A DNA stretch of 22,623 nucleotides from the IMG/VR virus record IMGVR_UViG_3300042478_001262, positions 1-22,623 of that record. One strand, 5' to 3'. Both the position numbers and the translations under genes were made by a program. Position 1 is the first letter of the stretch. Every line of letters begins with the position of its first letter. Positions 5,551 through 14,143 of the stretch are shown piece after piece. Source of the stretch: a virus. The notes under the pieces were generated by a model. It was not told the DNA's origin, made no database searches, and saw only the letters and a program-made list of their open reading frames with translations.

Positions 5551-6095
5551 TGGCTTGCCCGTGCTGCCAGCAGGAGACGTGCGTAAGCCCACGGTGTTGC
5601 GAATGCTTTGCAGCCCTTGGCAACAGGTATCCGCGATTCATCAACGTCACCGTTGCAGGCTCATGTGTAATTACTGACCCGTTCATACTCAGTTTTTGCG
5701 GCGGTGGCGTGACGTATAACTTCAACGAATCATTAACGCTATCTAGGGTGGGCACTGATTATTCGCCAGACTGTCCGGCCTTTAGGTTTGATGGAGGCCA
5801 GCTATGCACTCCACTGCCGGAAGGTTGCTGCGAAGTCAGCGGAATCGGCATCAACGTCTCATTTTGGTTTTGGGGCACTTCTGCTTATGCCAACCTCGGT
5901 GAGTTTAGCGTCAGTGTGAGGCACCCTTCTATCTGCAGTGCCTGCGGCTTGGGTACATCAATGTATGGCGTAGCGAACTGGGTGTACACAGGATGCGAAA
6001 ATGCGATTTCGCAGGCTGGCACAATTGCAATTAACCCAGTCGGGCGGTTCATTGGTGGCTCTGGGTCTGCAACTGTAACCGGGTTTCAATATTGA
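5550..6095 (+). CDS. Cysteine-rich virion-associated protein
   Basis: A 181-residue protein with about 16 cysteines, including MACPCC, CVSPRCCEC and EGCCE clusters in the first 100 residues and a CSAC pair near 140. The rest is Gly, aromatic and Thr rich and probably beta-structured. Its start overlaps the preceding stop by one base (TGATG). The clustered Cys could bind zinc or, outside the cell, form disulfides. There is no signal peptide, so export would have to be as part of the particle. Position after the tail-tip genes suggests a virion or host-contact role, but I recognise no family. Confidence 0.6.
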   Translation: MACPCCQQETCVSPRCCECFAALGNRYPRFINVTVAGSCVITDPFILSFCGGGVTYNFNESLTLSRVGTDYSPDCPAFRFDGGQLCTPLPEGCCEVSGIGINVSFWFWGTSAYANLGEFSVSVRHPSICSACGLGTSMYGVANWVYTGCENAISQAGTIAINPVGRFIGGSGSATVTGFQY

Positions 6096-7708: not shown

Positions 7709-8276
7709 AGACGCCAACGAGTTGCTGCGTTCTGCTGTGCAGATCCGCCGCGAGGCCCAGGCGGCAGGCAAGCCACATGAGGAGTGGTATGGCGTGTCGC
7801 AGGCGGCGACAGATCCTAGGTGCTTTGTCGCAAGTACCGAGGAAACGCAACACGTCGATGAGCCATACATCGAGCACCTGCTGCACGAGCACCACCTGCA
7901 CCGTGCTGGCCTGACGCAGGACGAACTAGACGAAGCCCTTGAGCGTCTGGCCGGCGACGGCATCACGCACGAGCAGCGGCCCGGCTCGCTGCCGTTTCTG
8001 GAACTGCTCGAGGAGGTGCGGCATCTGCACCTGAGCAAGAGCCAGGACTACGGGAGCGAGAGCGACCCGCTGGCCAACATCCGCCAGGGCGCTGAGTTCG
8101 TTGGCATCGAGCCGTGGCGTGCCTGTCTCGTCAGAGTGGCCGACAAGGTGCAGCGGCTGAAGACGTACTGCCGCACCGGCCGGCTCGTCCACGAGGGCGT
8201 GCGTGACACGCTGCTGGATCTCTCGGCGTATAGCCTGCTGGCGATTGTGCTTTTCGATGAGGGCCGCAATGGCTGA
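7692..8276 (+). CDS. MazG/DUF1599-like nucleotide-associated protein
   Basis: A 194-residue protein. Residues about 105-190 contain KSQDYGSESDPLANI, then the charged helices WRACLVRVADKVQRL and the segment EGVRDTLLDLSAYSLLAI. This fits all-alpha NTP-pyrophosphohydrolase-like (MazG/DUF1599) domains in which conserved Glu and Asp residues hold magnesium. The N-terminal 100 residues are helical, His-rich (EHLLHEHHLH) and not recognised. Known relatives hydrolyse non-canonical or alarmone nucleotides or accompany nucleotide modification; which applies here is unknown. The gene overlaps the phosphoesterase by 17 bases. Confidence 0.7.
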   Translation: MTTTIEDANELLRSAVQIRREAQAAGKPHEEWYGVSQAATDPRCFVASTEETQHVDEPYIEHLLHEHHLHRAGLTQDELDEALERLAGDGITHEQRPGSLPFLELLEEVRHLHLSKSQDYGSESDPLANIRQGAEFVGIEPWRACLVRVADKVQRLKTYCRTGRLVHEGVRDTLLDLSAYSLLAIVLFDEGRNG

Positions 8277-8457
8277 ACCGCTGACGCCCGAACACCTTGC
8301 CACCATGGAGCAGGCCGCCCGCCGTTTCTCGGGAGCTTACACGGGCACGAGCGGGACGCTGGCCGGCTACGTGATTCACTTGTTGCAAGAAGTGCAACGG
8401 CTCAAAGCCGAGTGGCAACTGCTCGCGGTGGCAAAGGCCATGAAAGAAAACGCCTAG
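8269..8457 (+). CDS. Small hypothetical phage protein
   Basis: A 62-residue protein beginning at ATG 8269 (MAEPLTPEHLATMEQAARR), overlapping the MazG-like gene by eight bases. An upstream in-frame ATG at 8203 exists, but the intervening residues are only the shadow of the preceding gene. The protein looks like two or three amphipathic helices with no motif. It is the last gene of the rightward late module, and its TAG stop lies inside the long inverted repeat at 8453-8518. Function unknown. Confidence 0.6.
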   Translation: MAEPLTPEHLATMEQAARRFSGAYTGTSGTLAGYVIHLLQEVQRLKAEWQLLAVAKAMKENA

Positions 8458-8518
8458 GCCAGGGCTTGAGCGGCGGCGGTTTTATCCCTTTCCCGCCGTC
8501 GCTCGCCCTGTGCCTAGG
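8453..8518. terminator. Long inverted repeat between convergent genes, likely bidirectional terminator
   Basis: The left arm has CCTAGGC (8453-8459), CAGGGC (8460-8465) and GAGCGGCGGCGG (8468-8479). The right arm has CCGCCGTCGCTC (8493-8504), GCCCTG (8505-8510) and GCCTAGG (8512-8518). Together they form about 25 pairs, one of them G-U, with small bulges and a pyrimidine-rich 13-base loop. The stop codons of both convergent genes lie within the CCTAGG ends. No U-run follows on either strand, so termination is inferred from placement and stem strength. Confidence 0.6.
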
Positions 8519-9428
8519 CCGCTGGCGTGCTTGGCCCGTTCAGATCCAGCGGCGGCAGGCAGTCAACGCTGCTCTGCTCTGTGGGGCAGATCGTGGGGTC
8601 CACGTACCGCTCCTGTAGCTTCGGGTCGCTGTGATCAAGCACCTGCGTGGCTGCGGCCGTACCGCCCGCCAGGGCTGCGTATGAGGCCCGAGTACGCCTA
8701 AGCCCGTGGAAGCCCCTGTAACGCACGCCAGAGAGCCTGCAAAGCAGCTTGAGGCTAGTCCACAGGCTTCCCCTGGCTCTGTCCCAGTGCCACACCAGTT
8801 CGTCAGGCTGGCCCCGCTGCGGCAGCATCATGGCCGCCAGCTGCTCGGTGAAGTCTCGCTCTATGTCGTGCGTCTGCCCTTTGCGAGTTTCACCGCGAAA
8901 TATCACCCGCCGACGCTCGAGGTCTAGTTCGCCCCACCTGAGCGACAGCAAAGCCGTTGCCCGTTCGCCAGTGCAGTACGCCATGTAGATCAGCGTGGCC
9001 CACCACCAGCACGACAACTTTCCGCCGGTGCGTCCGCGCCGGTGACGCGACTGCCGAATCAACTGCGCCACGTCTTCGGCCGTGTAGGCCCGGCCTGTTG
9101 GGATGCTCTTTGACACCTTGATGCGTGGCAACTCTGGAAAGTCTTTCGCCCACCGCTTGCGGGCAGCCAGATTCCACACAGCGGCCAGCATCACCTTGTC
9201 TTTCTGCACGCTCGCTGGCCTCACAACCTTGCCTCCCCAGGACTGCGTAGCACGGGCTCTGAGGTAGCGACTGATCACGAGGTCATCTAGGTCGGCAACC
9301 GTGGGCTCGTGCTTTAGGAACGCACGCAGGCGATCCAAGAGCATTGAGTACAGCACCATCGTCTTGGGGTTCAGATTTCGCAGATCCGCATACCGCTCGA
9401 ACAACTCAGCCAACGTCATCGGTTCCAT
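8514..9428 (-). CDS. int: Tyrosine recombinase / phage integrase
   Basis: A complete 304-residue integrase, the only large leftward gene. The N-terminal 100 residues form the SAM-like core-binding domain (MTLAELFERYADLRNLNPKT). The catalytic domain shows Arg156 in CTGERATALLSLRW, Lys183 in TRKGQ, His241 and Arg244 in FHGLRRTRASY, His266 in LDHSDPK and the nucleophile Tyr275 in ERYVDP. It would join phage attP and host attB through a 3'-phosphotyrosine intermediate. The start is supported by GGAGAGCGGAA directly upstream on the minus strand. It is convergent to the late genes and divergent from the HTH gene at 9641, a classical lysogeny arrangement. All catalytic residues are present. Confidence 0.93.
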   Translation of the reverse strand: MEPMTLAELFERYADLRNLNPKTMVLYSMLLDRLRAFLKHEPTVADLDDLVISRYLRARATQSWGGKVVRPASVQKDKVMLAAVWNLAARKRWAKDFPELPRIKVSKSIPTGRAYTAEDVAQLIRQSRHRRGRTGGKLSCWWWATLIYMAYCTGERATALLSLRWGELDLERRRVIFRGETRKGQTHDIERDFTEQLAAMMLPQRGQPDELVWHWDRARGSLWTSLKLLCRLSGVRYRGFHGLRRTRASYAALAGGTAAATQVLDHSDPKLQERYVDPTICPTEQSSVDCLPPLDLNGPSTPAA

Positions 9429-10522: not shown

Positions 10523-10550
10523 TTGACACGCTAGTGAACAGGCGTATAGT
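10523..10550 (+). promoter_or_regulatory. Near-consensus sigma70 promoter
   Basis: A consensus TTGACA (10523-10528) is followed after 16 bases by TATAGT (10545-10550). It is the strongest promoter-like sequence seen in the window and faces the HNH-AP2 gene, whose ATG at 10578 has the ribosome site AAGGAGACAGCC. Confidence 0.75.
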
Positions 10551-11441: not shown

Positions 11442-12296
11442 ATGAGCACGGAACTTTCAACACAACGGGCCAGCGGGCTGGCTCTTCAGACGTTCGATGA
11501 CGCATGGCGGTTCTGGCAAATGGTGGCAAAGACTGACTTTGCCCCCAAGGATTTCAAGAACAAGCCTGAGTCTTGCATGCTCGCAGGGCAACACGGGGCA
11601 GAGCTTGGGCTTGGCCCAATGCAGTCTCTGCAGTGCATCGCCGTGATCAACGGACGGCCAACCATCTGGGGCGATGCCGCGCTAGCCTTGGTGCAGAGCT
11701 CGTCCGTTTGCGAGTTTGTCAGCGAGGCAGTTGAGGGCGACGGCGACCAGATGGTTGCCACCTGCATTGCAAAGCGGCGTGGCTACCCAGCCCCGTCTGC
11801 CATCAAGTTCAGCGTTGCCGACGCCAAGAAAGCAGGGCTGTGGGGCAAGTCTGGCCCGTGGACGCAGTACCCCAAGAGGATGCTGCAGCTGCGGGCCAGG
11901 GGCTTCGCCCTGCGCGACGCCTTTCCTGACGTGCTGCGTGGGCTTGTGACGGCCGAAGAGGCTCAGGACTACCCCACGCAGCCTGAGCCCGTCGTGGTGC
12001 GGCCGAAGTTCACCGACGAGCCCAAGGCCACCGTCGTGAAACTCAAGGCGGATCAGCCGGCCACTGCCAGCGATGCACTTGGCAACGCCCGCCTGGCGGT
12101 GAGCAAGGCCGACAGCATCACGGCGTTAAACCGTCTGCGAACGCTGGTGGCTCAGCGGCTCACGGAAGGCAAGTTCACGAAAGCCGAGCACGACGAGCTC
12201 GTCCAGTTGATGCTGCACCGGGCCGAGATGCTGGGCGACTCTGACGATGGCGTGGCGTTTGAGCACGAGGCCGCTGAGCACGAGGTGACGGCATGA
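11442..12296 (+). CDS. RecT-like single-strand annealing recombinase
   Basis: A 284-residue protein with the pattern of phage RecT-type proteins: residues 50-84 (GAELGLGPMQSLQCI then INGRPTIWGDAALALV) and residues 135-172 (WTQYPKRMLQLRARGFALRD, AFPDVLRGLVTAEEAQ). Such proteins coat single-stranded DNA and anneal homologous strands during phage replication and repair. The C-terminal 110 residues are more variable and acidic, ending EHEAAEHEVTA, perhaps a contact for host SSB or replication proteins. No partner exonuclease lies beside it, which is unusual for Red-type systems. The start is preceded by AAAGGACGC. It overlaps the next gene through ATGA. Confidence 0.8.
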   Translation: MSTELSTQRASGLALQTFDDAWRFWQMVAKTDFAPKDFKNKPESCMLAGQHGAELGLGPMQSLQCIAVINGRPTIWGDAALALVQSSSVCEFVSEAVEGDGDQMVATCIAKRRGYPAPSAIKFSVADAKKAGLWGKSGPWTQYPKRMLQLRARGFALRDAFPDVLRGLVTAEEAQDYPTQPEPVVVRPKFTDEPKATVVKLKADQPATASDALGNARLAVSKADSITALNRLRTLVAQRLTEGKFTKAEHDELVQLMLHRAEMLGDSDDGVAFEHEAAEHEVTA

Positions 12297-12529
12297 CCGA
12301 GCCACTCGTGATTGACGCCAAGGTCGTGGCGGACTACCTCGAGCGGCAGCACTTGCCACGCATGGCAAGTTGGGCCTTGGCCCAGGCCAACGCCGTGGCC
12401 CGCGAGCGACTCATGGCCGAAGTCTTTCGCCGCGAACTCAGCGACACGCTGCGAAGGCTTGAGAAGTACGAGCCCAGCATTCAGCACACGCCCGTGAGTT
12501 GCGTCCCACCACCAGAGAGCAGCGATTGA
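12293..12529 (+). CDS. Small hypothetical protein
   Basis: A 78-residue protein translationally coupled to the RecT-like gene by a four-base ATGA overlap. It is helical and charged (VVADYLERQHLPRMASWALA, ARERLMAEVFRRELSD) with a Pro-rich C-terminal tail. There is no catalytic motif or membrane segment. Coupling to the recombinase suggests an accessory function in recombination or replication, but this is inference from position. Family not recognised. Confidence 0.6.
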   Translation: MTEPLVIDAKVVADYLERQHLPRMASWALAQANAVARERLMAEVFRRELSDTLRRLEKYEPSIQHTPVSCVPPPESSD

Positions 12530-12532
12530 ACA

Positions 12533-12661
12533 CGCCACGCCATTGGCGAAGCAGGCTGACGAACACAGCCGCATTGGCCGCCTAGCGGTAGGTGGCGAGT
12601 AACAACCGCAGCCGACGCCGTTGATCCGGCGGTGAGTCGGTCGCGCCGGGCGTAACCCGGC
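12533..12661 (+). ncRNA. Candidate structured RNA with five tandem hairpins
   Basis: In the gap before the helicase gene, five hairpins stand in a row with short linkers: CGCCA/TGGCG (12533-12548), GGCTG/CAGCC (12554-12570), GCCGCCT/AGGTGGC with a six-base loop and one G-U (12577-12596), CCGAC-GCCG/CGGC-GTCGG (12611-12641) and GCCGGG cgtaa CCCGGC (12645-12661). No reading frame or U-run is present. It may be a 5' leader element of the helicase operon or a small RNA. The strand is assigned by operon direction; no known RNA class was recognised. Confidence 0.5.
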
Positions 12662-12688
12662 AAATACACACGAAAGGATGCGTGGACG

Positions 12689-14143
12689 ATGCAGGTTTAT
12701 TTGGATGACGCAATCGACTCATACCGCAGATTCCTGCGTATCAAGTCGCTGCCGCGTTACGAGATCCACGGCCGTATGGCGTGGTTCCCAGACGAGTACG
12801 CAGGCGACATCGGCGTAGCTGCCGACCAGCCAGCCATTGCGTCATACGAGCCACGGCCTGGGCTCTTTGATTACCAGCGGGACATTGTGCGGCTGGCGGT
12901 TGAGAAGAAGCGTTACGCCATCTTCGCTGACTGCGGGCTCGGCAAAACGCTGATGCTGCTTGAGTTTGCACGGCACGTCCGCGAGACGGTGCCCGACAAG
13001 CCCGTGCTGATTGTGTCGCCGCTCATGGTGGTTAAGCAGACGGTGGCCGAGGCCCAGAAGTTCTACGGCGACACGCTGCCCATCGAGCAGGTGGCAGCCA
13101 AGGATCTGGCCAAGTGGATGAAGAAGCCAGGCGGCCGGCTTGGCATCACGAACTACGACGCACTGCGAGACGATACGCCTGCCGGCGATCTGGCGGGACT
13201 GATTCTTGATGAATCGTCCATGCTCAAGAGCCACTATGGAAAATGGGGCCAAGTCTGCCTGCGAATAGGTGCAGGCGTTGAGTGGAAGCTGGCCCTTACC
13301 GGCACGCCTGCACCGAATGACCGCATCGAATACGCCAACCATGCCGTATTTCTGGACGCATTCCCAAACGTCAACTCATTCCTGGCCAAGTTCTTCATCA
13401 ATCGTGGCCAGACGATGGAGCGTTGGGAACTGAAGCCACACGCACTGCGGCCCTTCTATCGTGCTCTGTCGCACTGGTGCATCTTCCTGACAGACCCCAG
13501 CACCTACGGCTGGAAAGATAACGTCCACAACATCCCGCCCATTCACGTTCACATTGATGACGTGCGGCTATCTGCGGAGCAGGAGAAGGCCGTACGTGCA
13601 ACGACGGGCCAGCTGTTCGTCACTGAGCTCGGCGGCATCACGACCAGGGCCAAGCTCTCGCGTATGGCCAAGTGCGAAAGCAGCATCAAGCCACAGTACA
13701 TCGTGGACATGGTGCGAGAGTGGCCAACCGAAAGCACCATCATCTGGTGTCGATACAACGACGAGCAGGACATGCTGGCCCGCATGATTCCCGAGGCCGC
13801 GAGCATCGACGGCAAGACGCCGCAGGAAGAACGCCAGCGGCTCGTTGACGAGTTCAAGGCCGGCAGCATCAAGGTGCTCATCACCAAGCCCAAGATCCTG
13901 GGCTTTGGACTCAATCTGCAAATCTGCACGCGACAGGTATTCAGCGGCTTGCAGGACTCCTACGAGGAGTATTACCAGGCCGTGAAAAGGAGCAACCGCG
14001 TCGGCTCGTGGCGTCCGCTCAACGTCCACGTCCCCGTGACTGACATCGAACGCCCGATGGTTGAGAACGTGCTGCGTAAGGCACGTCGCGTCGAGGCCGA
14101 CACCCGCGAGCAGGAGGCGATGTTTCGTGACGCTACTGCCTGA
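12689..14143 (+). CDS. SNF2/DEAD-like superfamily 2 helicase
   Basis: A 484-residue SF2 ATPase. Motifs in order: LFDYQRDIV (59-67, Q-motif-like), ADCGLGKTL (80-88, Walker A), VLIVSPLMVV (106-115, Ia), LILDESSML (171-179, DExx box as DESS), LALTGTPAPN (201-210, III), IIWCRYN (351-357, IV), KILGFGLNLQ (402-411, V) and YQAVKRSNRVG (429-439, VI with Gln and two Arg). This is the SNF2/Rad54-like branch, double-strand DNA translocases. The N-terminal 55 residues are family-specific. AAAGGA upstream supports the start. It directly precedes a DNA methyltransferase, a common phage pairing in which it may act in replication or DNA modification. Confidence 0.88.
   Translation: MQVYLDDAIDSYRRFLRIKSLPRYEIHGRMAWFPDEYAGDIGVAADQPAIASYEPRPGLFDYQRDIVRLAVEKKRYAIFADCGLGKTLMLLEFARHVRETVPDKPVLIVSPLMVVKQTVAEAQKFYGDTLPIEQVAAKDLAKWMKKPGGRLGITNYDALRDDTPAGDLAGLILDESSMLKSHYGKWGQVCLRIGAGVEWKLALTGTPAPNDRIEYANHAVFLDAFPNVNSFLAKFFINRGQTMERWELKPHALRPFYRALSHWCIFLTDPSTYGWKDNVHNIPPIHVHIDDVRLSAEQEKAVRATTGQLFVTELGGITTRAKLSRMAKCESSIKPQYIVDMVREWPTESTIIWCRYNDEQDMLARMIPEAASIDGKTPQEERQRLVDEFKAGSIKVLITKPKILGFGLNLQICTRQVFSGLQDSYEEYYQAVKRSNRVGSWRPLNVHVPVTDIERPMVENVLRKARRVEADTREQEAMFRDATA

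Follow-up and report, generated by a model that had tools for sequence, protein, structure and literature searches.

A noncoding gap between a small ORF and a helicase gene

The window analysed here, a 22,623-base stretch of an IMG/VR viral record, carries tail, integrase, RecT-like, SNF2-helicase, methyltransferase and sliding-clamp genes. A gap at 12530–12688 separates a small ORF, which follows the RecT-like gene, from the ATG start codon of the helicase gene at 12689. The original prediction placed five stem-loops in this gap and claimed that it holds neither an open frame nor a U-run; all five were recovered where predicted, and the gap contains no plausible gene and no U-run after the last hairpin. 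Its features, and those of the surrounding operon, are as follows.

10523–10550, + strand: possible operon promoter, TTGACA-16-TATAGT (11 of 12 consensus positions; a consensus match only)
11442–12296, + strand: RecT-like single-stranded DNA-annealing gene (PHROG 561 RecT, E 5.7e-47)
12293–12529, + strand: small ORF between the RecT-like gene and the RNA
12533–12548, + strand: hairpin 1, 5 bp, loop CGCCAU
12551–12572, + strand: hairpin 2, closed by G12551-C12572, with A12553 bulged
12579–12597, + strand: hairpin 3, which forms S1 in an H-type pseudoknot, CGCC (12579–12582) with GGCG (12594–12597)
12585–12609, + strand: pseudoknot stem S2, GCGGU (12585–12589) with ACCGC (12605–12609)
12598–12604, + strand: A-rich pseudoknot loop L3, AGUAACA
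12611–12641, + strand: hairpin 4, outer helix 12611–12616/12636–12641, inner helix 12618–12621/12629–12632
12645–12661, + strand: hairpin 5, GCCGGG/CCCGGC
12662–12669, + strand: conserved single-stranded tail, AAAUACAC, with almost no variation within the window's phage group
12672–12678, + strand: Shine-Dalgarno-like GAAAGGA of the helicase gene, read from the sequence
12689–14143, + strand: SNF2-family helicase gene, the downstream neighbour of the RNA (Pfam PF00176 and PF00271, PHROG 62)

The + strand of the gap folds at -72.3 kcal/mol, against -59.4 ± 3.9 kcal/mol for dinucleotide shuffles (z -3.36), and none of 200 shuffles matches it; this comparison had been set beforehand as a check. 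The - strand is unexceptional (z -1.0). Folding energy alone is weak proof, since the stretch 8401–8573 is more stable and some relatives, folded singly, reach modest z-scores. The gap is thus not the most stable one of the window, a correction to the original view. The 8401–8573 stretch is the most stable in the window, also after GC correction, and sits between a + strand gene ending at 8276 and the integrase gene (- strand, 8514–9428); it probably serves these convergent genes as a two-way terminator, or else is an attachment site.

Compensatory changes reveal a pseudoknot

A search with the helicase as query returned 71 viral loci, about 25 of which have the same gap directly upstream, even where an unrelated coding sequence precedes it. 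In a plain MAFFT alignment of 18 sequences that was not fitted to the model (A1), 92.9% of cells form the 33 proposed pairs, and in 22 of these pairs both sides change; covariation scores 0.421, compared with 0.129 ± 0.015 for shuffles (0 of 500 as high) and at most 0.066 for slid pairings. Among 69 distinct sequences, in an alignment fitted to the model, 95.4% of cells are paired, both sides change in 29 of the 33, and the score is 0.534 (0.129 ± 0.007 shuffled; slid pairings at most 0.091). The core also covaries in a cross-lineage alignment (A3), unfitted like A1 (0.474 versus 0.114, 0 of 500). Non-Watson-Crick cells on the + strand comprise 68 G-U and 30 A-C, and this excess of G-U favours an RNA of the + (coding) strand. 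The gap is therefore a conserved structured RNA of ~137 nt with five hairpins and a pseudoknot, and compensatory changes across relatives strongly support the structured RNA that had been proposed from the sequence of the window. Of the outcomes named in advance as speaking against it, neither a lack of stability above shuffles nor a lack of covariation was seen.

The pseudoknot, formed by the loop of hairpin 3 and the downstream ACCGC, was revealed by covariation and is absent from the original prediction, which had described hairpin 3 as an 8-bp stem at 12577–12596. A single-sequence fold does give that stem, but the 8-bp form is not conserved; relatives favour a 4-bp stem (S1) with its loop engaged in the pseudoknot. 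S1 occurs as CGCC/GGCG, AACG/CGUU, AGCC/GGCU and other variants in relatives and is invariant in the cross-lineage core alignment. S2 cells are paired in 100% of cases in A1, 95% in the 69 sequences and 94% across lineages; the third S2 pair occurs as G-C, C-G, A-U and U-A in the 69 sequences, and pairing is kept in the variants GCACU/AGUGC, GCUG/CAGC, GCCGU/ACGGC and UCGG/CCGA.

The other hairpins covary as well. All five pairs of hairpin 1 change on both sides (CGCCA/UGGCG, CGGCA/UGCCG, CGCCC/GGGCG), as do five of five in hairpin 2 (96% of cells paired) and four of five in hairpin 5 (99% paired). Hairpin 1 is found in the window's group, while distant lineages lack it or have different 5' flanks; hairpin 5 is also found in the P1-like phage JK004. 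Hairpin 4 contains a G/UGA internal loop (12617 and 12633–12635) and a pyrimidine-rich apical loop, UGAUCCG in the window. CUCC is present in 32 of 48 distinct hairpin-4 loops of relatives, where 8.2 are expected and 1000 shuffles reach 18 at most. Some relatives lack hairpin 4 altogether (loci L005, L030, L201 and L209). Hairpins 1, 2 and 5 are additions of the window's phage group to a core that consists of the H-type pseudoknot (S1, a two-nucleotide loop, S2 and the A-rich L3), one nucleotide, and then hairpin 4.

The core is widespread and absent from Rfam

Model R1 and DNA patterns identified the core, pseudoknot plus hairpin 4, in ~200 viral contigs of unrelated lineages; the viral loci were chosen by DNA patterns, so the lowest R1 scores partly reflect selection. 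Low-scoring contigs have unrelated flanks and a GC content near 46–55% with the same core. The shared core reads CGCC-NA-GCNGN-loop-GGCG-AGUAAC-NNCNGC-A-hairpin 4 with G/UGA. BLAST with the core matched the P1-like Cronobacter phage JK004, F116-like Pseudomonas records (E 7e-5) plus JBD90, 28 in all, and 29 Klebsiella phage-plasmids, whose R2 scores are weak (15–17 bits) and whose membership rests on the BLAST match and inspection. BLAST matches in capsid genes of other Pseudomonas phages are probably due to chance. Each of 31 viral records holds one R1 match, and each of 13 further records searched holds one clear or best R2 match.

Ten stretches emerged from a pattern scan of bacterial genome contigs. 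Eight are chance-like by sequence and two, in Hydrocarboniphaga effusa AP103, are real; these two RNA copies each lie in an identical 3-kb segment. The segments (L327, 141537–144619; L330, 345069–348151) are identical 3,083-base prophage stretches ~200 kb apart. An R2 search of 369 Gammaproteobacteria returned the two H. effusa matches and one 37-bit candidate, and a search of 294 Planctomycetota genomes returned no match; the sensitivity of these host searches is low because few candidates were scored per genome. The 37-bit candidate lies at 1501–1570 of L331 in a gammaproteobacterial genome (G393), where a motif search was empty.

The original prediction recognised no known class, and none emerged from the comparisons. 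Rfam 15 has no match in the window at gathering score, none in 12400–12800 at E ≤ 5, and none at the loci of distant relatives except separate tRNAs; ARAGORN and the tRNA model make no tRNA or tmRNA call at the RNA in the window. A CUGACGA-like string in hairpin 2 recalls a hammerhead, which was rejected as the string is not conserved in relatives. No published description of the motif was found in the open-access literature. The RNA is thus absent from Rfam 15 and, within that literature, previously undescribed.

The RNA keeps its place while the next gene changes

Within the window's group, recT is followed by the small ORF, the RNA and then a variable gene, which may be a helicase, an 'MSDYY' protein, DUF4406-like, ParB-like or others (named by N-terminal sequence resemblance, not all of them tested). 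The next gene, which depending on the phage can also be an HTH repressor, is on the strand of the RNA, and its start codon is usually 6–31 nt past it. The site directly 3' of the RNA is a gene-replacement hotspot in the group, where the RNA and recT stay.

Other lineages place the RNA differently. It comes after ERF-like and SSB-like proteins in L093, L109 and L129, after the SNF2 helicase itself in L166, and after a RecT-like protein in L087, where it ends the recT operon and the next genes are on the opposite strand (proteins named by inspection). The left early operon of F116, LKA5 and E220 begins with it, behind CI and DUF1654; in F116 this operon has an intrinsic terminator, GCCCGGCTACGGCCGGGC-TTTTTT, between p24 and p23. 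In JK004 the RNA lies within the leader of coi and c1 homologues and 3' of a tRNA-like element, in the Klebsiella phage-plasmids it lies in a gap with tRNA genes, and in the H. effusa prophage it precedes a late gene run from HNH to prohead protease. An early-promoter position is thus seen in F116-like phages and a repressor-operon leader in JK004, while the window, where the RNA lies ~2 kb inside the operon and away from the operon promoter, and most relatives have it mid-operon.

Several neighbouring elements were observed. L151 has a terminator-like hairpin at 165–236 (AACCCTTGAGG...CCTCAAGGGTTTTTC), ~70 nt past the RNA core. One low-GC phage group (L074, L129, L144 and L181) has a second conserved structured stretch upstream of the core, reading AAGCGGATGC...GACGCAGCGAGTA...CACCTAATACGCC, and in some copies an insert beginning CCAAGACGCATGA after the core. 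P1-like and other phage-plasmids carry tRNA-like elements of ~125 nt with an expanded middle and an intact T-arm (L322, 2762–2884; L325, 2503–2629; L323, about 2502–2632; L233, about 5858–5983). The Rfam tRNA model scores those of L322 and L325 at 41 and 46 bits, ARAGORN calls none, and the element of JK004 (L233) is directly 5' of the RNA core.

Possible functions of the RNA

The original prediction offered a leader, an sRNA or a protein-bound RNA. The structured RNA stands, but a helicase-specific leader is not supported, as phages differ in the gene that follows and other genes take the helicase's place. The single copy, the lack of a preferred next gene and the position at the start of long operons or within them speak against a riboswitch or a gene-specific leader and fit an element acting in cis on a whole operon or a trans-acting RNA.

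For the function of this family we infer, tentatively and at somewhat less than an even chance, a processive antiterminator that works like put, though we do not file it as a member of put. The structured RNA would be made as part of a phage early transcript and, on emerging from RNA polymerase, the nascent RNA would bind the enzyme. The bound polymerase would then resist terminators throughout the remaining operon, as with HK022 putRNA, and all downstream genes would be expressed, whatever their identity. This reading is favoured by the place of the RNA at the start of the left early operon of F116, which contains an intrinsic terminator, by its single copy, by its indifference to the next gene and by the topology it shares with HK022 putL. 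Counted against this reading are the absence of an R2 score for HK022 put, the chance rate of the shared topology, L087, where the RNA ends the recT operon and the next genes are reversed, the location ~2 kb inside the operon in the window, and the CUCC loop, which has no role in the model. Intrinsic terminators downstream of the RNA show no enrichment: 60 loci yield 6 on the + strand and 9 on the - strand.

The conserved CUCC loop, left unexplained by the antiterminator model, is why we keep as main rival a trans-acting phage sRNA, which on balance we consider unlikely. Such an RNA would be co-transcribed with the early genes and processed out, and the CUCC of hairpin 4 would block translation of host or phage mRNAs. 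The anti-Shine-Dalgarno-like character of CUCC and its enrichment in the loops fit this, as do the single copy per record, the RNA in tRNA-gene gaps of Klebsiella phage-plasmids, its place at the operon end in L087 and that ahead of the terminator-like hairpin in L151. However, the RNA of the window's group is nearly always ~6–31 nt from the next gene's ribosome-binding site and lacks both a terminator and a recognised promoter of its own; several relatives have deleted hairpin 4 with its loop, and the loop in the window has only GAUCC. Alpha-proteobacterial CcsR/'cuckoo' RNAs are trans sRNAs that expose anti-Shine-Dalgarno loops. They may share with the new RNA a C/U-rich, CUCC-type loop on a stable hairpin; the new RNA differs in its pseudoknot core and in having neither the tandem hairpins of that family nor its own terminator.

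CUCC is also complementary to GGAG, and the RNA is close to the ribosome-binding sites of diverse genes, as expected of a cis leader that controls translation or stability of the next gene, for example through base pairs between the hairpin-4 loop and the Shine-Dalgarno sequence that comes next. Yet pairing with the phage's own Shine-Dalgarno sequence is no better than with those of other phages (-5.29 versus -5.74 kcal/mol), and sequestration by the hairpin-4 loop was rejected on this swap. There is one copy per genome, and in L324, JK004 and L087 the RNA is far from, or lacks, a co-directional next gene; we regard a cis leader as improbable.

A structure in single-stranded DNA, such as a lagging-strand or single-strand initiation site, next to the genes for recombination and replication would account for one copy per genome and for the recT, ERF, SSB-like or helicase genes that adjoin it in many lineages. 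It is very improbable given the surplus of G-U over A-C cells, and the RNA shares its strand with the adjoining operon wherever this can be read; neither JK004 nor the H. effusa prophage nor the start of the F116 operon has replication genes beside it. Least probable of all is a metabolite riboswitch or small self-cleaving ribozyme, suggested by a compact conserved pseudoknot 5' of genes, since the downstream genes share no common pathway and no Rfam riboswitch or ribozyme matches.

Comparison with known antiterminator RNAs

To our knowledge, protein-free antiterminator RNAs are known from few elements only (put, EAR and canT). If the antiterminator reading is true, a family of ~200 contigs that includes the laboratory phage F116 would make the strategy common and provide a tractable system. 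Whatever its function, this conserved phage RNA with its pseudoknot core is missing from current listings and can be annotated now in many genomes.

The putRNA of HK022 targets RNA polymerase in cis via the β' zinc-binding domain; it can suppress terminators over distances of at least 10 kb, and its stem I holds a minor-groove triplex (PMC9378689). We located putL in the HK022 sequence and read it against the cryo-EM description; the published pairings are 3–7 with 15–19, third strand 21–25 and A9–G35 (PMC9378689), and the remaining stem I pairs are read here as 10–14 with 30–34. So read, putL resembles the core in its H-type pseudoknot (AGACG/CGUCU, AA, CGGCG/CGUCG), its A-rich minor-groove loop, its two-nucleotide first loop and its stem II, which follows after one nucleotide. 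Both are phage RNAs with a ~70-nt core and a second stem-loop with internal irregularities, both stand at the start of a left early operon (in F116 for the new RNA), and neither needs a dedicated protein as explanation. A descriptor of the put topology (pseudoknot, A-rich third strand, stem-loop at most 1 nt on) matches the window, JK004, L129 and L166 and misses F116, whose L3 has only two A, and K. oxytoca; by chance this topology occurs ~0.75 times per kb, so it is not rare. The new RNA differs from put in that S1 and S2 are joined by 4–5 nt (0 in put), L3 is shorter, and G/UGA and CUCC loops are present; it occurs once (put twice), often mid-operon, and over a much wider phage range. No sequence similarity to HK022 put is detectable: the core model R2 finds nothing at E ≤ 10 in 12 kb of HK022, and without filters its score for the putL stretch is below 0 bits.

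Taken together, the put-like pseudoknot, the single copy per genome, the occurrence in unrelated phages and a sequence unlike put would suit a new, widespread class of protein-free antiterminators, placed wherever a long operon needs read-through in phages of several bacterial groups, a proposal we hold a little more doubtfully than antitermination itself. EAR also sits between genes of its own operon, a mid-operon location. In the case of EAR (eps operon) and canT/conAn2, RNAs inside or ahead of long operons make polymerase ignore terminators (PMC11658703). These elements come from other hosts and are likened here by description, the new RNA having no Rfam match; what they share with it is their place within a long operon or before it.
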